From positions 229,495 through 293,494 of the forward strand of contig BPIC01000006.1 of the NCBI GenBank assembly GCA_026003895.1: a stretch of 64,000 nucleotides of DNA, in the 5' to 3' direction. Both the position numbers and the translations under genes were made by a program. Shown piece by piece: positions 1,994-14,817 of this stretch. The DNA comes from Dehalococcoidia bacterium. Its GTDB lineage: Bacteria; Chloroflexota; Dehalococcoidia; SpSt-223. The notes beneath the pieces are model-generated. The model was not told the DNA's origin and ran no database searches. It worked only from the letters and a program-made list of their open reading frames with translations. The stretch's first letter is position 1; each line of letters starts with the position of its first letter.

Positions 1994-2800
1994 TCAGCGC
2001 CAGGCCGTGAATCCGCCGTCCAGCACAAGATTCTGCCCGGTGATGTACGCCGAAGCGTCGGAGACGAGAAAAATCGCCGGCCCTTTGATGTCGACGCCAT
2101 CTCGGCCCATCCTGCCAAGCGGCGTACGATCCGCATAGGCCCGAATAAAGGCCGCTGGCTGCTGGCGGGCAAATCCACCGGGCGAGATTGCATTCACCCG
2201 AATTCCCAGCGGGCCGAGTGCGGCCGCAAGATCGCGCGTTAGCGCAATGACCCCGCCCTTCGCCGCCGCATAATCGACCGGTTGCTCGGCCATCGCGCTC
2301 TGCCAATACATCCGCCGATCGCGCCCGACGAGACCAGCGATCGACGCGATGTTGAGGATGACACCGGACCGCTGCACAGCCATAACGCGCACCGCCGCTT
2401 GGCTACAAAAGAGCGTACCAAGCAGATTGACGGCGATAAGGTCGGTCATCGCCGCCGGCGGGCGATCGAGGAACGGGCGCGGCTCGTCGGGAGCCGTGCC
2501 GCCGGCGTTGTTGACGAGAATGTCGAGCCGGCCACCCCAGTCGACCACGGTCCGGACGGCGCGAGCGCAGGCGTCGGCATCACGGACGTCAAGAACGAGC
2601 GGCAGGACCGCCGCCCCGGTGGCCTCGTGCAAGCGCTGCGCCGCCAGTTCGGCACGCTCCGCCTCGCGCGAGGCAATCGCGACCTTGGCGCCCGCGCTAG
2701 CAAGCGCGTCGGCAATGTCGAAGCCGAGGTCCCGAGCGCCCCCGGTCACGAGGGCGATGCGGCCATCGAGCCGAAAGCGGTCCAGCGCCGAGGTCACCAC
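1994..2800 (-). CDS. SDR family oxidoreductase
   Basis: VTGGARDLGFDIADALASAGAKV, NNAG, YAAAKGG motifs. Confidence 0.92.
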   Translation of the reverse strand: MVTSALDRFRLDGRIALVTGGARDLGFDIADALASAGAKVAIASREAERAELAAQRLHEATGAAVLPLVLDVRDADACARAVRTVVDWGGRLDILVNNAGGTAPDEPRPFLDRPPAAMTDLIAVNLLGTLFCSQAAVRVMAVQRSGVILNIASIAGLVGRDRRMYWQSAMAEQPVDYAAAKGGVIALTRDLAAALGPLGIRVNAISPGGFARQQPAAFIRAYADRTPLGRMGRDGVDIKGPAIFLVSDASAYITGQNLVLDGGFTAWR

Positions 2801-3741
2801 CCAGCCTCGTCACCCTCGGCCGAGATTACCACCGAATCCAGATACAGGAAGCACCGTTTGTCACGGGCAGCTTCAATCCCGAAGATGGTTGCCACGAGGC
2901 CGGGGCACCGCTCCGTGCTGGCGCGGAAGCCGGTTAAGGGCGGGTCGAAGACGTGACGTTTTCCCGCGACGGCAAACTCCTTGCCGTAGCAATGAAAGTC
3001 CACGTAGCAGTGGGTGGTGAGGTCGATGGTGAGCCGGAGATAGTGCCACTGATATTTGGTCGGCGAACGGTTGAAGCCAAGGTCTTGGCGGCCGTCAGGA
3101 AGATCATCCCACGGCCCATCGAGGACCCCTTCCGAACCGTGGAGCATCATCTGCCAGCGCCCCCCTGCCGGGTCGTTCACATAGCGCACCGCTGGCCACC
3201 AGCGAAGCGGCTCCTCACCACGCTCGCGGAGGTGATGAGGATCCATCACATCGCAGGCGAGGAACACGGCGCGCACGTCGTGCTCGCCGAGACGAAAGTC
3301 GGACGGCTCCGCCTTATAACAAAAGTACGTCTCAAAGCGAAGCTTGCCGCGCTCCGGAAGCGTCAGCCGCTTGACCGCCAAGCCTTTCTCTCCGGCGATC
3401 GGGAGGGTCGGGATCTTGAGCGCGTAAGTCCCGTCCCACGTTCCTTGGCTGCCAATGTCCCACGAGGTAAGGCTACTGAGCATGGGCATCGCGCGGCGGC
3501 CGAGTGGGATGCGCCGGTCGATGCGGAGGCCCGGATCGGCACGTGAGAGGGCGACGATTTCCGGCACCGTTGGCACCGGCGCGTAGCGCTCCGGATAGTC
3601 CTCCCAGCCATCATAGTCGGGGAACAGCCCTTGCCAACCGTTCATGCCGTGGTCGAAGTCGTCGACGACAAGGAGCCGTTCCAGCGGCTGGTAGCGACCG
3701 AGCAAGCGATCTGACCGTCGGAGCGCCCGCGCGAGGTCCAT
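2794..3741 (-). CDS. Conserved hypothetical protein in sugar-catabolic locus
   Basis: Long ORF; start chosen at MDLARALRRSDRLLGRYQPLERLLVVDDFDHGMNGWQG; no family assigned confidently. Confidence 0.7.
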   Translation of the reverse strand: MDLARALRRSDRLLGRYQPLERLLVVDDFDHGMNGWQGLFPDYDGWEDYPERYAPVPTVPEIVALSRADPGLRIDRRIPLGRRAMPMLSSLTSWDIGSQGTWDGTYALKIPTLPIAGEKGLAVKRLTLPERGKLRFETYFCYKAEPSDFRLGEHDVRAVFLACDVMDPHHLRERGEEPLRWWPAVRYVNDPAGGRWQMMLHGSEGVLDGPWDDLPDGRQDLGFNRSPTKYQWHYLRLTIDLTTHCYVDFHCYGKEFAVAGKRHVFDPPLTGFRASTERCPGLVATIFGIEAARDKRCFLYLDSVVISAEGDEAGW

Positions 3742-3743
3742 GC

Positions 3744-4091
3744 TTACTCCTTGAACACCCAATAGATGTCGACGATGGCCGCCGGCCCGCTCGACGGCCC
3801 TCCCGAAACGGCGCCGACCAACCGCAGCCAATTGCCGAAGTGCGTGAGCCGGAGCAAAGCCCCTCCGGGCGCTGTCTGCGGCGGAAAGGCGGCCCCAAGG
3901 TCGACCCAGCGCTGGCCATCCGCTGATCCTTGTGCCCGCAGTTCGAGGCGAGGATCCGGTCCCGCGACCTCACGCACGTAGACGAAGGCGATCGCTTCCG
4001 ATGCCCACCCAGCTTCGTAGGGCTCACTTTCATACGGGCCGTTGGCAAGGCTGGCAAACAACTCGATCGGGACAGTGTGGCTGCGACGCAT
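3744..4091 (-). CDS. Hypothetical protein, probable small beta-rich domain
   Basis: 115-aa ORF tightly packed between neighbours on the same strand. Confidence 0.65.
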   Translation of the reverse strand: MRRSHTVPIELFASLANGPYESEPYEAGWASEAIAFVYVREVAGPDPRLELRAQGSADGQRWVDLGAAFPPQTAPGGALLRLTHFGNWLRLVGAVSGGPSSGPAAIVDIYWVFKE

Positions 4092-5534
4092 CAGTGGCTG
4101 ACTCCGGCGGGCGCGGGGTTGCTCGGAATTGCCCCGATCCGCTCAATCAGCGCTTCGTCCGGCTGACCGAGCGCTTGGCGCAGCTCTGCTCCCTGCTCGA
4201 TGAGGCGAGCTTGCAGGCGATCAATGGGCACGTCGCGCGGGCTCTTCCCCAACTCCACCGCCAGTGCCGCAGCCGTCCCGACTGCCTGCCCCTCGGCCAT
4301 ACAAATGGGGATCACTCGCGTGCTCGCGATCGCCTCGTGGGTGGCGGAAATGCACTTGCCCGCCATCAGCAAGTTCTCCACGCCCCCGCGCCACCAGCGA
4401 TCGAAAGGGAATGTCGTATGGCTGCACATTGCGGCTCTCGACCCACCGGCCATCGGGTTGGTGAATATCGATGTGATACCCCCCCATCGCGACGACGTCC
4501 GGGAAGACTCGGCCTGCCATCACGTCCTCGCCCGTCAAGACGTAGTCCCCCAGAATGCGACGGCTCTCGCGCGTGCCGATCATCGGCGCAATCTCGAGGA
4601 GGTAAGAGTGCTCGAAGCCGGGAAGGTAGGTTCGGAAGAAGCGCAGGAGCGGCGGAATCTGGGCGTAGGCATCGAGATAGGCTCGGGTAAGGACGTCGAC
4701 ATCGGTGGGGTCGAAGGCGACCACTTTGGTCGTGACGGCGATAAATTGGTCCGGCTGATGCGGTTTGACCCCAACCACCCGTGAGGGCGGCACATCGAGA
4801 TCGCCGGCCCGTCGCGCCTCCTCCATCAGGTGGTGGTAGCCGCCGACGATGATGACCGGCTGGTCCGGCAAACGAGCAAGAAACTTGGTAAGCGCATCGG
4901 GATAGGGCGCCAGCATCTCCCGGAAGCGACCACCAAGACGTTGCGCCCCTCGGACGAAGGCTTCGCGATCGACGCCACCGACGCGGAAGACGAGCGTGGG
5001 TGCTTGGATGAGTCCATCGCCCGACCGTCCTTTCTCCCAAGGAACACCCCCGCGAGCGGCCACGTCGCCATCGCCCGAGCAGTCGATCACGACATCCGCC
5101 TCGATCACCTCGCGGCCGCTCTTGTGCTCGACGACGACCCCCGCAATGCGGTCGCGTTCTCGAATGACGTCGACCACGTGGGTCTGGAGCATCACTCGAG
5201 CCCCGGCTTCGCCCAACAATTCGAGAGCGAGCACCTTGTAGCGGTGGCCATCGAGGCTCATCGCCGAACTGCACACCGGGTCGAGGACGATCGGACTTGC
5301 TGCGCCGATCGCACGGAGCCGCTCGGCGAGTTCGAGCGCGATCCCCCGGACGACCAACCGGTAGTCCCGAGAATGAAAGCCCAGCCACGGCAGGATCGCC
5401 GAGTTGCCGCCGACGAACCCCTGCGACTCGACCAGCAGCGTGTCCGCGCCGTTGCGAGCTGCGGCGAGCGCCGCGGCGACCCCCGCGGCGCCACTGCCGA
5501 CCACGAGCACCCGCGCTCGACGAGCGCGGATCAC
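4091..5534 (-). pseudogene. FAD-dependent oxidoreductase (FAD_oxidored type) with a single frameshift
   Basis: ORF 4221..5534 carries VLVVGSGAAGVAAALAAARNGADTLLVE; the C-terminal part (GVENLLMAGKCISATHEAIASTRVIPICMAEGQAVGTAAALA) is in another frame (ORF 4091..4453); switch at C-run 4383-4387. Confidence 0.85.
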
Positions 5535-6307
5535 CGGGCCACTCCCGCGGTTAGCTCACGGAATCGGCGAACACTCGCCACCGCTGCCGATTGAAGGTAG
5601 GCGAGATCGCCGCTGGTCCAGATCATCGCCGCCCCTCGCTCAATCCAATACGCAGCCTCGCGCTCGTCGGCGGCATGCAGCGCTGCCGGTATGCCGAGGC
5701 GAACCGCCGTTGCCAACACGTGCTCGACCGCCTCTTCAACGCGCGGATTCCGCCAGTCCGGCGCGAGCCCCATCGAGCCGGTGAGATCGGCTCGGCCGAT
5801 CAGCGCGACGTCAACGCCCGGTGTCGTCAAGATTTCCTCGGCATGCTCCACGGCGTCGATGTGCTCAATTTGGACGATCACCATCACTCGCTCGTTGGCA
5901 TCCAGAAGATAGCGGTCCCCCTCACCCTGCGCGTTGGCTCGCCGTGGGTTGATCCCCCGCACCCCACGGGGGGGAAATTTGCAGAGCCGGACCGCTCGCT
6001 CGGCTTCCTCCCGCGAGTTGATCATTGGCAGCATGATTGCTTCGGCGCCAATATCAAGGACGACCTTCGTCGAGGTGATATCGTTCCACGGCACGCGCAC
6101 GATCGGCACACAATCCAGCCCTTTGAAGACCATCAGCATGGCCTCGAGCCGTTCGAGAGAGATCGGGGCATGCTCGAGGTCAAAAATCAGCCAGTCGAAC
6201 CCCGCATAGGCCATCGTTTCGGCGACGGTGACATCATAGGAGACAATCCACGAGCCGAATGTCGGTTGGCGCGACTGGAGCTTCTGCTTAAGCGGGAGAC
6301 TTCGCAT
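5531..6307 (-). CDS. HpcH/HpaI aldolase/citrate lyase family protein
   Basis: YAGFDWLIFDLEHAPIS, VRVPWND, GAEAIMLPMINSREEAERAV, GRADLTGSMG; start at MRSLPLKQKL. Confidence 0.92.
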   Translation of the reverse strand: MRSLPLKQKLQSRQPTFGSWIVSYDVTVAETMAYAGFDWLIFDLEHAPISLERLEAMLMVFKGLDCVPIVRVPWNDITSTKVVLDIGAEAIMLPMINSREEAERAVRLCKFPPRGVRGINPRRANAQGEGDRYLLDANERVMVIVQIEHIDAVEHAEEILTTPGVDVALIGRADLTGSMGLAPDWRNPRVEEAVEHVLATAVRLGIPAALHAADEREAAYWIERGAAMIWTSGDLAYLQSAAVASVRRFRELTAGVAR

Positions 6308-6324
6308 CAAATTTCCTTCTTGCG

Positions 6325-7170
6325 CTATTGCTTCACCGCGCCACTCGTTAGACCCGCGATGAATTGGCGCTGCATCAGGATCAAGCACACAATGAGCGGG
6401 ACGACAGAGAGGGTGGCGCCGACGGTAATCGGACCCCAAACCGATCGGTCTGTGCCCGAAGCGGCAGCAACCGAACTGTAGAAGTATTGAAGTCCGAGTG
6501 AGATGGGCAAGTTATCCCGCGTTCGCACCATCACGAGCGGCAGGAGATAGGCATTCCATGCCGTCAGAAACATCAGCAGGCCAGCAGCACCGAGGCCCGG
6601 ACGGATGAGCGGAAGCGCAATCTGCCAATACAGTCGGAACTCGCCCGCGCCATCGATCCGCGCCGCGTCGAACAGCTCTTCCGGAAGCTGTTTCAAGTAT
6701 TGGCGAAGCAGGAACAGCGGGAGAACCGCCGCAGCAAGGGGGATTATCACGGCAAATGGCGTGTTGACGAGGCCAAGCAACCGCGCGACGACGAACGAGG
6801 GTATCAACGTCACGTAATCAGGGATCGCCAACGACGCGAGGAGCAAGCCGAACAACACATCTCGACCGCGGAAGTGATAGCGAGCGAAGGCAAACGCTGC
6901 CATCGACGTGACCGGCAGGCCAATCAACAGGGTACCCACCGCGATCACGGCAGTGTTCAGAAGAAACCGCGGCACTGGTGTTTCGGTAAGTGCATACACG
7001 TAGTTTTCAAGCGTCAGCCGCGCTGGAATGAGCGACGGGTCAGAAACGATGTCCGACGCCGGCTTGAACGACGAGATCGCCAACCAATAGAAGGGAATGA
7101 GCGTCACCACGCCCATCAGCACGAGGAAGGCATAGACCAAGACGAGGTCCGGAGCAACCAGTCTACGCAT
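6325..7170 (-). CDS. Carbohydrate ABC transporter permease (MalG/UgpE-like)
   Basis: Multi-TM protein with EELFDAARIDGAGEFRLYWQIALPLIRPGL EAA loop. Confidence 0.93.
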   Translation of the reverse strand: MRRLVAPDLVLVYAFLVLMGVVTLIPFYWLAISSFKPASDIVSDPSLIPARLTLENYVYALTETPVPRFLLNTAVIAVGTLLIGLPVTSMAAFAFARYHFRGRDVLFGLLLASLAIPDYVTLIPSFVVARLLGLVNTPFAVIIPLAAAVLPLFLLRQYLKQLPEELFDAARIDGAGEFRLYWQIALPLIRPGLGAAGLLMFLTAWNAYLLPLVMVRTRDNLPISLGLQYFYSSVAAASGTDRSVWGPITVGATLSVVPLIVCLILMQRQFIAGLTSGAVKQ

Positions 7171-8134
7171 CGTGGTCTCCGCGCAGGAAGCGCACCTGAA
7201 GAATGGTGACCGCAATGATCGCGACCGCCAAAATTGCTGCCGCCGCCGCCCCGCGGCCGAGGTCGAAACTCAGGAACGCTTGACGGTAGATGTACATCAC
7301 CGCCGTGAGCGTGGACCGCGCCGGACCGCCTTCGGTGAGGACGTAGGGCTCCGCAAACAGCTCCCACGCGGCAATCGACGCCGCGACGATGACGAACAGC
7401 GTCACCGGACGAAGCAGCGGCAACGTAATGTGCCGGAAGCGCTGAAGGCCGTTCGCGCCGTCGATAGCCGCAGCCTCATAGAGCTCGCTGGGTATCGACT
7501 GGAGGCCGGCATAGAGAATGACTGCGTAATACCCGACGACACGCCAGACGCGCAGAGCGATGATCGACCACGGCGCGACCGACGGGTCCTCCAACCACCG
7601 GATTCGCGGCCCGCCGATCCAGGTAAGGAAGGCGTTCAGGACGCCGGCTCGCTCGTCGTACAGCAGGTCAAACACCATCGCCACGACGATGAGCGACATC
7701 GTGATTGGTAAGAAGTAGACGACCTGAAAGGTCCGCCGGCAGGCGAGATTCGGACGATTCAGCGCGACGGCGATCACCATCGCCAGCGGGACGAGGATGA
7801 CGATGTAGCCGAGGAACATCCGCAAGGTGTTCCAAAGCGCGATTTGGAAGACGCTGTCTCGCAAGACGAAGGTGAAGTTCTGCAGCCCGACGAACTCGAT
7901 ATCGCCACCGATCTCCCAATAGACGAAACCGATGGCGACGGCGCCGAGCACCGTCGCAGCGCCAAACGGGATGAAGATGACGAAGAACGGAACGAGAAAG
8001 AGGTATGGCGTCCAGGCCGAATAGAGCGTCCGCTTGCGTGTCCGGACGGGTGGCACAAGGGCAATCGGCGAAGCGGCAACCCTGGCCACCGGATTACCGG
8101 CGCTCGCTCGCGATTTTCTCCAGCGCCTTGACAC
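7163..8134 (-). CDS. Sugar ABC transporter permease (MalF/UgpA-like); exact start uncertain
   Basis: Multi-TM protein with SELYEAAAIDGANGLQRFRHITLPLLRPV EAA loop. Confidence 0.92.
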   Translation of the reverse strand: MSRRWRKSRASAGNPVARVAASPIALVPPVRTRKRTLYSAWTPYLFLVPFFVIFIPFGAATVLGAVAIGFVYWEIGGDIEFVGLQNFTFVLRDSVFQIALWNTLRMFLGYIVILVPLAMVIAVALNRPNLACRRTFQVVYFLPITMSLIVVAMVFDLLYDERAGVLNAFLTWIGGPRIRWLEDPSVAPWSIIALRVWRVVGYYAVILYAGLQSIPSELYEAAAIDGANGLQRFRHITLPLLRPVTLFVIVAASIAAWELFAEPYVLTEGGPARSTLTAVMYIYRQAFLSFDLGRGAAAAAILAVAIIAVTILQVRFLRGDHDA

Positions 8135-9416
8135 TCAGGTCGACCGCCTGAGCAGCCGTGACTTGTCCGGCGGCGGCTTGCTCGACAATCGGGCCGATCT
8201 CGGACTCCATTTTGTCCCAGTCCCAGTAGTTGAACGGAGGATACGGGACCCGGCTCATGTCGAGTTGCACCTTCTGCCCTCCGAAGAAGGGGCGGCCTTC
8301 TTGGTAGATCGGAAGCTCGGTCGCCGGCTTGTAGTTGCTAATCCCCCAGACCTTGATCTGCTCCTCCATGCCCTTCTCGAGCCAGAAGGTCATGAAGGCG
8401 CGCGCCGCGTCCAGATTCTTTGCGTTCTTGAGCACGGCGTAGAAGACCCCGCCAAAGGCGCCAGTTTGGTTTGGCGCGTTTGGGCCCCATTTCGGCCACG
8501 TGACCATGCGCCACTGCCCGCTCTGCTCGGGCAGGTTCTGGACGGTGTTATTCGCACCAACGGCGAAGTTCATCTGATAGCCGAGGTTCTTGCCCTCTCT
8601 CGCGGCCTGCCAAAACGTCGGCGGTACCCAATCGTTTTCGTAGGCGATGCCAGCGCGCTTGAGGTCGATCCAAAACTGGAAGACCTCCTGCAGAGTCTGC
8701 AAGTTCCTGCCATCCTTATACGGTTGGCCATCCTCAGTCCACCAGTTGCCACTGCGCGAGTGAAAGAAGGTATTGAACGTATTGAAGCCGATGGCGCGCA
8801 ACGGCTGGATCAGGAACGTCTTCTGGCCGCCGGAATCGCGAGCCAGTTTCTTGGCAGCCTCGATGGTGGCATCCCACGTCGTGAACGTCGCGATGTCGAT
8901 GCCGTTCTGGCGCAGTTGCTCGGCGTTCACCCACAGCGCGACGTTCCCGGGACCCTGAACATAGCTATAGATGCGGCCGCGATGGCGGACGATCGCCGAC
9001 GGCGAGTCGAACCGCGATTCATACGGCTTGAGCAGATCATCCATCTCGAGGAACTGATTGGTGCGCAGGTAAATTGCGGCGCGCCGCGCGATCACCCACG
9101 TGATGTCCGGGAGATCGGTCTGGGTAGCAAGGGCGACGAGCAATTTCTCCTGGAGGTCATTGCCGCCGAAGTCGACGAGGTTCACCTTCAAATTGGGATA
9201 GGCCGCTTGAAAGGTTTGCTTGATCGCGTTGGTCATCTGGCTCGAGCCGTTCCAGATCGTCAGCTCGCCGGTGATGTCGGCGGGCGCCTTGGTTGGGGCG
9301 GGAGCGGGAGCCGAAGCACCACCGGTCGTTGGGCCAGCCGGATTACAGCCGGCGAGAGCGGCGCCGCCGAGCGCGGCTGAGGCGACAAGGAACGAACGCC
9401 GGGAGATCTGGTCCAC
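8094..9416 (-). CDS. Extracellular sugar-binding lipoprotein (SBP_bac_1 type), Tat/lipobox leader
   Basis: GTG start; SRRSFLVASAALGGAALAGC leader; ITGELTIWNGSSQMTNAIKQTFQAAYPNLKV. Confidence 0.92.
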   Translation of the reverse strand: MDQISRRSFLVASAALGGAALAGCNPAGPTTGGASAPAPAPTKAPADITGELTIWNGSSQMTNAIKQTFQAAYPNLKVNLVDFGGNDLQEKLLVALATQTDLPDITWVIARRAAIYLRTNQFLEMDDLLKPYESRFDSPSAIVRHRGRIYSYVQGPGNVALWVNAEQLRQNGIDIATFTTWDATIEAAKKLARDSGGQKTFLIQPLRAIGFNTFNTFFHSRSGNWWTEDGQPYKDGRNLQTLQEVFQFWIDLKRAGIAYENDWVPPTFWQAAREGKNLGYQMNFAVGANNTVQNLPEQSGQWRMVTWPKWGPNAPNQTGAFGGVFYAVLKNAKNLDAARAFMTFWLEKGMEEQIKVWGISNYKPATELPIYQEGRPFFGGQKVQLDMSRVPYPPFNYWDWDKMESEIGPIVEQAAAGQVTAAQAVDLSVKALEKIASERR

Positions 9417-9444
9417 ACACCCTCCTTGTTGAACGGTTCACGAG

Positions 9445-9463
9445 TCAGATATCAGATATCTGA
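9445..9463. promoter_or_regulatory. Putative GntR operator (TCAGATATcagaTATCTGA, contains perfect palindrome TCAGATATCTGA)
   Basis: Same 12-bp palindrome recurs at 10309-10320; lies just downstream of a -10-like TATACT (minus strand 9477-9472) of the SBP gene. Confidence 0.75.
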
Positions 9464-9597
9464 GGAACTACAGTATAGATCATCGGAGTACGGGATGAAA
9501 GATTTTGTCTTCCGCACACCGGCCTAGGCGTAGCCCTCCAATCCCGATCACCCCGGCAAGCGCGACCGGCCGGGAACCCCATCCGCCGAGCGGGCCG

Positions 9598-10296
9598 TTA
9601 GCGCGTGAAATCCTCCGGCAGCACGCCCCGAATCCGCGCCCAGACTGGATCAAAGTGACGGCGCATCGCGTCGGTTGCCGCGCCCACGTCACCCGAGCGC
9701 AGGGCAGCGACGATCGCCCGGTGCAGCGCGACAACCCGATCGAGATCGCGCTCGAAGGGAACGACGTTGCCCTCCAAGCGGTGGTAGGTCTCCCAGAACA
9801 CCTCGATCAATCGCAGAACGATCGGGTTATTGAGCGGCGCGAACAGCCGCTGATGGAACGCTCGGTCGAGGTCCTCAAATCCGACCCCGGTCGAGGCGCG
9901 CGCGGCCATTCCGTCGACCAACGTGTCCAACTGATCAAAGTCCTCGGTCGACATCTTTGCCATCGCCATCGCGAGCAGCCCTTCTTCAAGCGCTTCGCGA
10001 ACTTGCAACACATCGCCGAGCGACTTGCCGTCGACGAACAAACTGTAGGGGAGATTGTCCAAAATTGGCGTGAACGAGAATGCTTTGACGTAGACACCGT
10101 TGCCCTGACGCGCCTCGACGATGCCAAGCGCTTCCAAGCTCTTCATCGCCTCTCGCATCGACAGTCGGCTGATCCCCAACTGCTCGGCAAGGACGCCCTC
10201 CGGCGGAAGCGGGTCGCCGGGTCGCAGGTGGTGCGTCTCGATATAGCGTTTGACCTGGGCCTGCGCCTCGCGGTACATCGGCACGCGTCTCGCCAT
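9598..10296 (-). CDS. GntR/FadR-family (FCD domain) transcriptional regulator
   Basis: IETHHLRPGDPLPPEGVLAEQLGISRLSMREAMKSLEALGIVEARQGNGVYV wHTH plus C-terminal FCD helices. Confidence 0.95.
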   Translation of the reverse strand: MARRVPMYREAQAQVKRYIETHHLRPGDPLPPEGVLAEQLGISRLSMREAMKSLEALGIVEARQGNGVYVKAFSFTPILDNLPYSLFVDGKSLGDVLQVREALEEGLLAMAMAKMSTEDFDQLDTLVDGMAARASTGVGFEDLDRAFHQRLFAPLNNPIVLRLIEVFWETYHRLEGNVVPFERDLDRVVALHRAIVAALRSGDVGAATDAMRRHFDPVWARIRGVLPEDFTR

Positions 10297-10308
10297 CGCA
10301 CACCCCAG

Positions 10309-10320
10309 TCAGATATCTGA
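10309..10320. promoter_or_regulatory. Putative GntR operator, perfect palindrome TCAGATATCTGA
   Basis: Located in the divergent gntR / Gfo-Idh intergenic region; shared with 9452-9463. Confidence 0.75.
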
Positions 10321-10380
10321 TGTCTTCGACGTTAATGTCGTAGTATAACGCTCATCCTCGACGGTCTGGCGGAGGTTCGC

Positions 10381-11406
10381 GTGGAGCCGGTTCGATTCGC
10401 AATCGTCTCTCCCGCACGGTGGGGGCGCTTGCTCCTCGACGCGGCGCGCGAGACGCCAATGCTCTCCTTCGCTGGAGTCGCGTCCGGAACCCGGTCGAAC
10501 GCGGACGCGGTCGCCCACGACTATGGCGGCCGCGTCTATCCGAGCTACGAGGCGCTGCTGGCTGATCCCACCATCGAGGCCATCCTTCTGCCGACGCCGC
10601 ATCACCTTCACTATCCGCAGGCGATGGCCGCCTTTGCCGCCGGCAAACATGTCTTCGTCGAGAAGCCGATCGCGGTCACCATCGCTGAGGCGGAAACAAT
10701 GCAGCAGGAAAGCGAGCGCCGGGGCTTGGTATTGGCCGTCGATCACCCGGGCCGACGCACGGGCGGCGCACGCCTCGCCAAGCGGCTGATCGACGAGGGC
10801 CGGCTCGGCGCAATCGTCTCGGCGGTCGCCATTCACGGCGCACCGCTTGAGCCCCGCAGCAACGAAGACTGGAAGTTTTCGGCGGAGGTCGTCCCGGGCG
10901 GACCGCTCGATCAACTCGGCCCGCACTATGCCGATCTGATGCACTACCTCCTCGGGCCAATTCGCAACGTGAGCAGTTACGTGCGCGACGACGTGACCCC
11001 ATTTTCCGCGCCCGATGCCGCCATCGCCAGCTTTCGGTTCGCCAGTGGCGTGATCGGCGTGTACGTCACCCATCAGGTCGCCGGCTACGTTAGCTCGCTG
11101 ACGATCTTCGGCGTCGCCGGCGCTCTTCGGATCGAGCGCTTTGGCCAAGAACTGTTCTGGCAGGATCGCACGCCAACCCAAGCTGCCCAAGCCGGAGAGG
11201 GTGGCTGGCGGCCAATCCCGGTTGCGGGGCCCGCGCCGTCCACCACCGCGTTGACTGAAGCGCTCGATGAATTTGCCCGCTGCATTCGCACGGGAGCTCG
11301 CGCGGAGGTCGGAGCGGCCGAAGGGATCGCAGCCTTGCGCGTGATGCGGGCTGCGCTCGACTCTGCTCAGATCGGCCGCGTTATTGAGCTGGCGGTGGAG
11401 CAGTGA
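10381..11406 (+). CDS. Gfo/Idh/MocA family oxidoreductase
   Basis: YPSYEALLADPTIEAILLPTPHHLHYPQAMAAFAAGKHVFVEKPIAV. Confidence 0.95.
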   Translation: MEPVRFAIVSPARWGRLLLDAARETPMLSFAGVASGTRSNADAVAHDYGGRVYPSYEALLADPTIEAILLPTPHHLHYPQAMAAFAAGKHVFVEKPIAVTIAEAETMQQESERRGLVLAVDHPGRRTGGARLAKRLIDEGRLGAIVSAVAIHGAPLEPRSNEDWKFSAEVVPGGPLDQLGPHYADLMHYLLGPIRNVSSYVRDDVTPFSAPDAAIASFRFASGVIGVYVTHQVAGYVSSLTIFGVAGALRIERFGQELFWQDRTPTQAAQAGEGGWRPIPVAGPAPSTTALTEALDEFARCIRTGARAEVGAAEGIAALRVMRAALDSAQIGRVIELAVEQ

Positions 11407-11714: not shown

Positions 11715-12737
11715 ATGCCGGTCGTCTCTGCCAACGAACTCGAGCGCCTCGCAGCGGCCATTCTCCACCGGCTCGGGGCGCCGGGGGATATCGCGGGCAT
11801 CGTTGCCGAGAGCCTCGTCGAGGCCAACCTCCTTGGGCACGACTCGCACGGTGTCATCCAACTGCTGCGCTATGCCAGCAAGGTAGCGGAGGGATCGCTG
11901 CAGCCAGCGGCGCGGGCGACCGTCCGACGACGACAGGGAGCGACGGCCACCGTCGATGGCGGCTGGGGCTTCGGGCACCCGGCTGCCCATCTGGCGGTAG
12001 CGACGGCGGCACCGCTGGCAGCCGAATTCGGGATCGCCGCGGTCGTCGTGGAACGGGTCAACCACGTCGGCCGGCTCGGCGAGTACGTCGAGGCGCTCGC
12101 CGCCGCCGGGCAAATTGGAATTGCCACCGCAGCCGGCGCAGGTCGAGGAGGCAGTGTCGCTCCGTTCGGGGGCCGCGAGCGAATCTTTGGCACCAACCCG
12201 ATCGCCATCGCTGTTCCCGTGCCATCGCATCGGCCACCCCTCGTGATCGACTTCGCGACGGCCGCGATTGCCGCTGGGAAGATCGACATAGCCCTTGCCG
12301 AGGGCAAGCCACTGCCAGAAGGAGTGCTGCTCGATGCCGCAGGAGTGCCGACGACCGACCCGGCAGCATTTGCCGCGGGAGGCGCGTTGCTGCCCTTCGG
12401 CGGCCACAAAGGCTCGGGGCTTATGCTGATGATCGAGCTTGTCACCAGCGTCCTCGCCGGCTTCGCGCCGGCCTCGTCCACCGAGTGGCAGCCTGGCAAC
12501 CCAGCCTTGCTCATTGCTCTTGCGGTCGATGCCTTCACCAGCCGCGAGCGGTTTGCGCGATTGACGGAAGAACTGCTGCACCGCGTCGAGTCTTCGGCTC
12601 CCGCCGAGGGCGTTGCCGAGGTCTTGCTCCCAGGCGCTCTGGAGGCGCGCACTCGTGCGAAACGCGAGCGCGAGGGGATTCCCGTGCCGGAACCAACATG
12701 GCGTCAACTCATCGCACTGCGGGACGGCGACCGGTGA
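11715..12737 (+). CDS. Ldh family (malate/L-lactate/ureidoglycolate-type) NAD(P)-dependent oxidoreductase
   Basis: GHDSHGVIQLLRY, VVVERVNHVGRLGEY, FGTNPIAIAVP, LPFGGHKGSGL. Confidence 0.93.
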   Translation: MPVVSANELERLAAAILHRLGAPGDIAGIVAESLVEANLLGHDSHGVIQLLRYASKVAEGSLQPAARATVRRRQGATATVDGGWGFGHPAAHLAVATAAPLAAEFGIAAVVVERVNHVGRLGEYVEALAAAGQIGIATAAGAGRGGSVAPFGGRERIFGTNPIAIAVPVPSHRPPLVIDFATAAIAAGKIDIALAEGKPLPEGVLLDAAGVPTTDPAAFAAGGALLPFGGHKGSGLMLMIELVTSVLAGFAPASSTEWQPGNPALLIALAVDAFTSRERFARLTEELLHRVESSAPAEGVAEVLLPGALEARTRAKREREGIPVPEPTWRQLIALRDGDR

Positions 12738-13705
12738 GATTTCGGGTGTGGGTGGACGTCGCGCCGCATCCCGCGACCTACCCGGTGCTGGACGGGCAGG
12801 CCGACCTGATCGGGCCGCTGGTCGACCGGTCGGAGGACCCGCTTCACGACATCGAGCGGGCCGATGCTGTGCTGGCCAGTGGGCGGTTTCCAGGGACGGC
12901 AGCCACCTTCGACCGCGCCAGCCGTCTGCGAGCGGTGGCGCGCTTTGGCGCCGGCTATGAGACGATCGATCTCGAAGCTGCGACAGCGCGGGGAATCTGC
13001 GTCATGAACACGCCGGACGCCCCGACGATCGCCACCGCCGAGTTCACCATCATGCTGATGATCGCGGTCATGCGCCGCCTGCTGCCGGGCATTCGCGCCC
13101 TCGAGGCAGGTGGATGGCCACCGCTCGGTGATGTCCTCGGTCACGACCTCTCCGGCAAGACGCTTGGAATCATCGGCCTCGGTCGGATCGGCAGCCGAGT
13201 TGCTCGGCTGGCGACCGCGTTTGACATGAAGGTCGTCGCCGTTGACCCCTTCGTGACGGCAGAGCGGGCCACGGCCGCCGGCGCAACCCTGCTTCCAGCG
13301 CTCGATCAGTTGTTGGGCATCGCCGACATCGTTTCCTTGCACGTTCCAGCGAGCGCGGCGACGCATCACTTGCTCGACCGTGCGGCCATCGCCCGTCTCA
13401 AGCCGAGCGCCGTCGTGATCAACGTCGCGCGCGGAACCGTCGTCGACGAGGTCGCACTCGCCGAAGCGCTCCGCGCTGGGCGGATAGCCGGCGCTGCGAT
13501 CGACGTTTGGAACCCCGAACCACCAGCGCCCAACCATCCGCTCTTGGGACTTCCGAATGTCGTCGCAACGCCACATCAGGCGGGGCTCTCGAACGAAGGG
13601 CGGGAACGCAGTAATACGGAGGCCGCGCGGCAGGCGCTGATGGTCCTGCGCGGCGAGCGGCCACCGCACTTGCTCAATCCGGAAGTTTGGGATCGCCGGC
13701 GCTAG
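12734..13705 (+). CDS. D-2-hydroxyacid dehydrogenase
   Basis: GTG start overlapping upstream TGA; GKTLGIIGLGRIGSRVARLATAFDMKV, VINVARGTVVDE, NVVATPHQAG. Confidence 0.93.
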   Translation: MRFRVWVDVAPHPATYPVLDGQADLIGPLVDRSEDPLHDIERADAVLASGRFPGTAATFDRASRLRAVARFGAGYETIDLEAATARGICVMNTPDAPTIATAEFTIMLMIAVMRRLLPGIRALEAGGWPPLGDVLGHDLSGKTLGIIGLGRIGSRVARLATAFDMKVVAVDPFVTAERATAAGATLLPALDQLLGIADIVSLHVPASAATHHLLDRAAIARLKPSAVVINVARGTVVDEVALAEALRAGRIAGAAIDVWNPEPPAPNHPLLGLPNVVATPHQAGLSNEGRERSNTEAARQALMVLRGERPPHLLNPEVWDRRR

Positions 13706-13722
13706 CCGGGTCGGAGGCACGC

Positions 13723-14817
<1,095 letters not shown>

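Follow-up and report, generated by a model that had tools for sequence, protein, structure and literature searches.

The stretch of DNA analysed here, referred to below as the window, comprises 64,000 nt of contig BPIC01000006.1 from a Dehalococcoidia bacterium, and coordinates are positions within it unless another genome is named. On its minus strand lies gntR (9598-10296), which encodes a 232-residue protein of the FadR subfamily, presumed to be a repressor, where an N-terminal GntR winged helix-turn-helix (HTH; PF00392, 63.1 bits, residues 8-70) is followed by a C-terminal FCD domain (PF07729, 94.6 bits, residues 95-216). Its relatives of solved structure include LldR (2DI3), with which residues D144, H148, H192 and H214 align by sequence only; these we take to be the Asp/His/His/His metal ligands of the FCD pocket. 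The two domains, together with the four aligned residues, suggest that the effector of the regulator may be a carboxylate.

The same strand carries, behind the first of two predicted operators (site 1), an operon whose first gene encodes an ABC solute-binding protein (SBP_bac_1, with a Tat-type signal; 8094-9416), followed by two ABC sugar permeases, one UgpA/MalF-like (7163-8134) and one UgpE/MalG-like (6325-7215), by a member of the HpcH/HpaI (GarL-like) 2-keto-3-deoxy-acid aldolase family (5531-6439, start codon uncertain), by an FAD-dependent oxidoreductase (PF12831; 4221-5534) and, probably within the same operon, by a DUF6772 protein (2794-3831, start uncertain) and a gluconate-5-dehydrogenase-like SDR (1994-2800). 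On the plus strand, divergent from gntR, are found a Gfo/Idh/MocA oxidoreductase (10381-11406), a possible target of the second operator (site 2), an Ldh_2 dehydrogenase of the malate/lactate/ureidoglycolate type (11715-12737), a D-2-hydroxyacid dehydrogenase (12734-13705, start uncertain) and a UgpC/MalK-type ABC ATPase (13687-14817), likely the motor of the transporter. Taken together, the cluster looks like one that breaks down a sugar or sugar acid by a non-phosphorylative route; its original description as a sugar-acid locus is a fair guess, the pathway being read from the enzymes only.

Palindromes on either side of gntR

Both copies of the 12-bp palindrome TCAGATATCTGA on which the original prediction was built are present and exact, at 9452-9463 and 10309-10320, within 0.9 kb of each other and on either side of gntR. 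These are the only two exact copies in the assembly (3,983,851 bases, 80.5% complete), while an order-2 Markov model derived from the window gives 0.065 copies as the expectation for a genome of that size; because the sequence is otherwise unique in the assembly and so few copies are expected, the two sites can be regarded as a real and specific feature of the locus, and the genome-wide search proposed earlier finds the palindrome neither common nor scattered. Only three more copies exist assembly-wide if one mismatch is allowed, one overlapping the first site (9445-9456) and two apparently in coding sequence. The overlapping copy corresponds to what had been described as an extra half-site; the whole, at 9445-9463, is in fact a perfect 19-bp palindrome (TCAGATATC-A-GATATCTGA), of which about 1.6e-6 are expected per genome. 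One-mismatch copies in coding DNA can be cited in favour of a chance palindrome or a sequence artefact, but this explanation has to account for two copies within 0.9 kb where 0.065 are expected and is already refuted by the recurrence of the site beside the orthologous regulator of another genome (G680, below), so that it is scarcely credible.

Closer inspection of the two sites suggests a smaller unit. Predicted site 1 (9444-9464, minus strand) is a 21-bp array of three abutting 7-bp cores, reading GTCAGAT, ATCAGAT and ATCTGAG on the plus strand, which encloses both the 19-bp palindrome and the 12-mer; predicted site 2 (10308-10321, minus strand) encloses the other 12-mer and consists of two good cores, GTCAGAT and ATCTGAT on the plus strand, a third at 10322-10328 being poor (4/7). 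The core, RTCWGAY, is itself palindromic around a central A/T, and the 12-bp palindrome arises wherever an A-centred unit precedes a T-centred one. The claim of two identical operators holds for the 12-mers, but not for the sites, which have three units and two good ones, respectively.

As to the promoters, a minus-strand TATACT (9477-9472) lies upstream of the ABC operon, as had been proposed for the -10-like box of the transporter promoter, with 7 nt between its end and core 1 of site 1; a second minus-strand TATACT, absent from the original prediction, is located upstream of gntR (10347-10342), and site 2, inside the gntR leader, has its first good core about 20 nt further on. A generic scan of the region found neither a standard sigma-70 promoter nor an intrinsic terminator at the palindromes; at site 1 no promoter is called because the -35 is weak. 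The gntR-Gfo/Idh intergenic region also contains, between site 2 and the TATACT/TATAAC boxes, a second imperfect palindrome, CGACGTTAATGTCG (10327-10340, 12/14), which could be the site of another regulator or due to chance.

Recurrence of the sites in other genomes

The nearest orthologue of the window regulator (57% identity) is encoded in a Chloroflexi MAG of another class of the phylum (JACQGX010000249.1; G680), whose cluster also contains an oxidoreductase of the PF12831 family. Phylogenetic footprinting, put forward with the original prediction as a check, finds the site there at the orthologue's own promoter, where TTGACG-18-TATGCT-7 is followed by CTCAGAT, ATCAGAT and AGCTGAC (L006:172-192); ahead of a further ABC solute-binding gene of that contig, where TTGACA-18-TACACT-7 is followed by ATCTGAC, ATCAGAT and ATCTGAG (G680:C205:10828-10848, L072); and on another contig, as GTCAGAC, GTCTGAT and ATCTGAT (G680:C359:12623-12643, L073), before a gntR remnant (L073:6658-6867) with 63% identity to the window protein over residues 2-65 and a stop after 69 codons. 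This remnant, a decaying gntR duplicate, keeps a perfect three-core operator in front, which could act as a decoy. Across the window and G680, three units are present in four of the five sites, window site 2 having two and a poor third, and in four of the five promoters the -10-like hexamer is followed by unit 1 at a distance of 7 nt (three promoters) or 8 nt (one), a spacing to be expected if repression acts at the transcription start; site 2 is again the one that deviates. The best reading of all five sites is as FadR-like cores of 7 bp, RTCWGAY, that abut; the proposal of a 12-bp palindromic operator stands as far as the operator reading is concerned, which is well supported, but the recognition element is probably the 7-bp core repeated two or three times.

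A shared site could have been explained by homology of the solute-binding genes; this was rejected, as the solute-binding genes on the orthologue's contig give no tblastn match to those of the window at 1e-8, and so the site follows the regulator. The same observation bears on the reading in which the palindromes are bound by a different regulator and the sites controlled by the adjacent GntR are others: departure of the cores from the textbook TKGT-N3-ACMA in most units would favour it, yet the site accompanies gntR across genomes even beside transporter genes that are not recognisably orthologous, including the decayed gntR copy, it is found nowhere else in the genome, and no second regulator is seen in the cluster, all of which makes this reading improbable.

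The distribution of the site outside these two genomes is narrow. With up to two mismatches, the 19-mer matches only 7 of 400 genomes of the phylum, those of the window and G680 included. In a 21-mer (three-core) scan of the 400 genomes, the match in G631 lies in coding DNA and no GntR was seen near those in G402, G565 and G542; these four were treated as chance, and a reversed-pattern control matches four genomes too. No close orthologue was found beyond G680 among the genomes searched, and spread of the motif through close relatives was rejected, both the GntR (E<=1e-30) and the 12-mer being absent from the two other genomes of the genus (G003, G044). An orthologue in another class and genus relatives devoid of the GntR would fit lateral transfer of the cluster, or else its repeated loss. 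The literature searched contained none of the motif strings.

The 19-mer and three-core scans also returned two GntR genes with an array directly at the start (G495:C25:268062-268089, L077; G440:C221:2046-2066, L097), both arrays containing GTCTGACATCTTA; the G495 gene carries a UTRA (HutC-type) domain according to Pfam and the G440 one looks similar, so that a second GntR subfamily may also have acquired heptad arrays. In G677 (C1:596313-596361; L074:4315-4362), a Gfo/Idh gene is preceded, at a distance of about 25-75 bp, by five to six tandem (TCAGATA)n units, on a contig that encodes no close GntR homologue; these units may represent either an extended operator or a simple tandem repeat.

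Doubled cores in more distant homologues

Homologues at 31-40% identity show, at gntR promoters, the same geometry of doubled cores written in other letters: TTGTAGGAT/ATCCTACAA in G607, TTGTAGGAT/GTCCTACAA in G690, TTGTAGGAC/GACCTACAA in G577 and ATGTCAGAC/ATCCGACAT in G555. The score for doubled cores was chosen after most sites had been seen; TTGTCAGAC/ATCTTACAA in G615 is the case that came from the scoring run without prior inspection. At a shuffle p<0.1, a doubled core was scored in 9/17 homologues lacking Arg at HTH position 28 and in 1/19 of those with Arg28, a comparison that is descriptive only, the score having been made after several sites were seen; Arg28-type homologues were rejected as carriers on this count. 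G680 itself encodes 16 GntR homologues at E<=1e-8, four of them with 45-56% identity to the window protein, and in the promoters of three of these four no recognisable doubled core was found. No convincing one was present in G680 C407, C167 (twice) and C359, nor in G528, G641 and G717.

The letters at the core centre appear to track HTH residue 39. Asn39 is accompanied by A or T after RT in G486, G577, G607, G685, G690 and G700, and Leu, Gly, Pro or Ala by C in the window, G680, G555, G615 and G641, which matches the preference of Asn39 for an A/T pair at that core position described in an analysis of the FadR subfamily (PMC4494728); the link is suggestive only, since four of the six Asn cases come from one family.

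The readings differ in the number of dimers on each site. The regulator and the repression could be as proposed and yet involve one dimer on an even palindrome of 12 to 18 bp, the extra half of site 1 being a dispensable flanking box. FadR-type dimers fit GT-N2/3-AC, and an even palindrome puts the GT/AC pairs much further apart; moreover, three units, not two, recur in four of the five sites, and the units do not share one central A/T pattern (AAT, TAT, ATT). On the other side, the A-then-T core pair TCAGAY/RTCTGA is common to all five sites (with one mismatch in L006), distant homologues keep a two-fold 18-bp palindrome, and FadR-type sites are known to have flanking half-sites at a distance of 7-12 nt (PMC4494728), so that a single dimer must be considered quite possible, although we lean against it. 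The array of cores would, in its most general form, point to a Chloroflexota clade of FadR-type regulators with heptad-array operators, their cores abutted at exactly 7 bp, on which two or three dimers would pack on overlapping DNA without an N-terminal extension of the NanR type, and whose core-centre letters would change with HTH residue 39; this generalization is offered tentatively, with confidence just short of even. Should it be true, the homologues would form a natural series on multi-dimer packing by FadR-type proteins on abutting sites, and would also show how residue 39 sets core specificity.

Proposed regulation and comparison with known systems

Uniqueness in the genome, recurrence at orthologue promoters and conserved promoter geometry give good support to the operator reading for the adjacent GntR. 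With the sequence and the domain make-up, these are the observations from which we infer binding, repression, the inducer and, as in NanR, one dimer per core. It is highly probable that the adjacent FadR-subfamily GntR is an autoregulated local repressor acting on compound operators of abutting 7-bp cores at the transporter promoter and at its own, from which it would be released by a carboxylate. The regulator would bind the three cores of site 1 and the two of site 2; the array of cores suggests several dimers, because one FadR-type dimer recognises one 7-bp core (GT-N2/3-AC). As the site 1 array starts 7 nt after the -10, bound protein would cover the transcription start and block initiation, occlusion of RNA polymerase being the simplest reading of an array placed right there. 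Release would follow upon entry into the metal-containing FCD pocket of a carboxylate, probably a sugar acid or 2-keto-3-deoxy acid of the pathway.

Repression of transporter and oxidoreductase, together with autoregulation, had been predicted. Control of the transporter operon and of gntR by the GntR is well supported, whereas control of the Gfo/Idh operon is plausible: gntR is 18 bp from the centre of site 2 and the Gfo/Idh start 66 bp, and no recognisable promoter of the latter could be tied to the site. Single divergon sites usually lie near the middle of the intergenic region (PMC4494728), and any -35 that goes with the plus-strand TATAAC near 10344-10349 would have site 2 upstream of it, which would suit a site serving gntR only, or activation by the GntR, the Gfo/Idh operon not being repressed; against it speak the enzymes, which as a set fit into one pathway together with the transporter, and the usual role of a single divergon site among FadR-type regulators, which is to serve the operons on both sides (PMC4494728), leaving this a possibility that we rather doubt. 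The repressor model provides a testable operator and a candidate regulon for a little-studied lineage; no part of the findings overturns known biology.

The nearest system in logic is, by analogy, E. coli NanR, likewise a FadR-subfamily GntR repressor in a cluster for sugar-acid uptake and catabolism, and likewise with three short units abutting in its operator, (GGTATA)3, on which three dimers sit side by side at intervals of about half a turn (PMC8012715). NanR is also the best-scoring NCBIfam model for the window regulator (E 4e-25), at 88.7 bits, below the cut-off of 260. The units differ, being 7-bp pseudo-palindromic RTCWGAY in the window and 6-bp GGTATA direct repeats in NanR, and the 32-residue N-terminal extension which drives cooperativity in NanR is missing from the window regulator, with about 7 residues before the GntR domain; dimer-dimer contacts would therefore have to differ.

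LldR (E 6e-15 for 2DI3), PdhR, UxuR and ExuR share with the window regulator the GntR HTH plus FCD architecture, the aligned D/H/H/H and local catabolic targets; its scores stay below the cut-offs of their curated models (74.9 bits against 311, 67.3 against 330, 56.1 against 442 and 45.1 against 396, respectively). Their site is one TKGT-N2/3-ACMA palindrome, as opposed to the abutted RT-CWG-AY cores, and at HTH position 28 the window regulator has Gly for Arg, Arg28 preferring G/C next to GT. Relative to TKGT-N3-ACMA, the window units retain the spacing of a 7-bp core, most of them have AT in place of GT, and the flanking K/M is A/T; more distant homologues keep TTGT...ACAA. The flanking boxes of FadR, HutC and YtrA sites resemble the window sites in adding a half-site a short step away from the main palindrome, at 7-12 nt, but are weaker, with about half the score (PMC4494728), whereas in several window-type sites the third unit equals the others in quality. 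Finally, the VanR-type Atu1419 tetramer is an FCD repressor whose own gene and target genes have several identical short palindromes nearby (PMC7797058), and looping between the two window sites, 857 bp apart, is conceivable by analogy; Atu1419 differs in its single 10-bp palindromes and its VanR group. Set beside these systems, the window regulator is, judged from its sequence and sites, a local catabolic repressor of an ordinary kind, and its compound operator departs only modestly from the FadR type.
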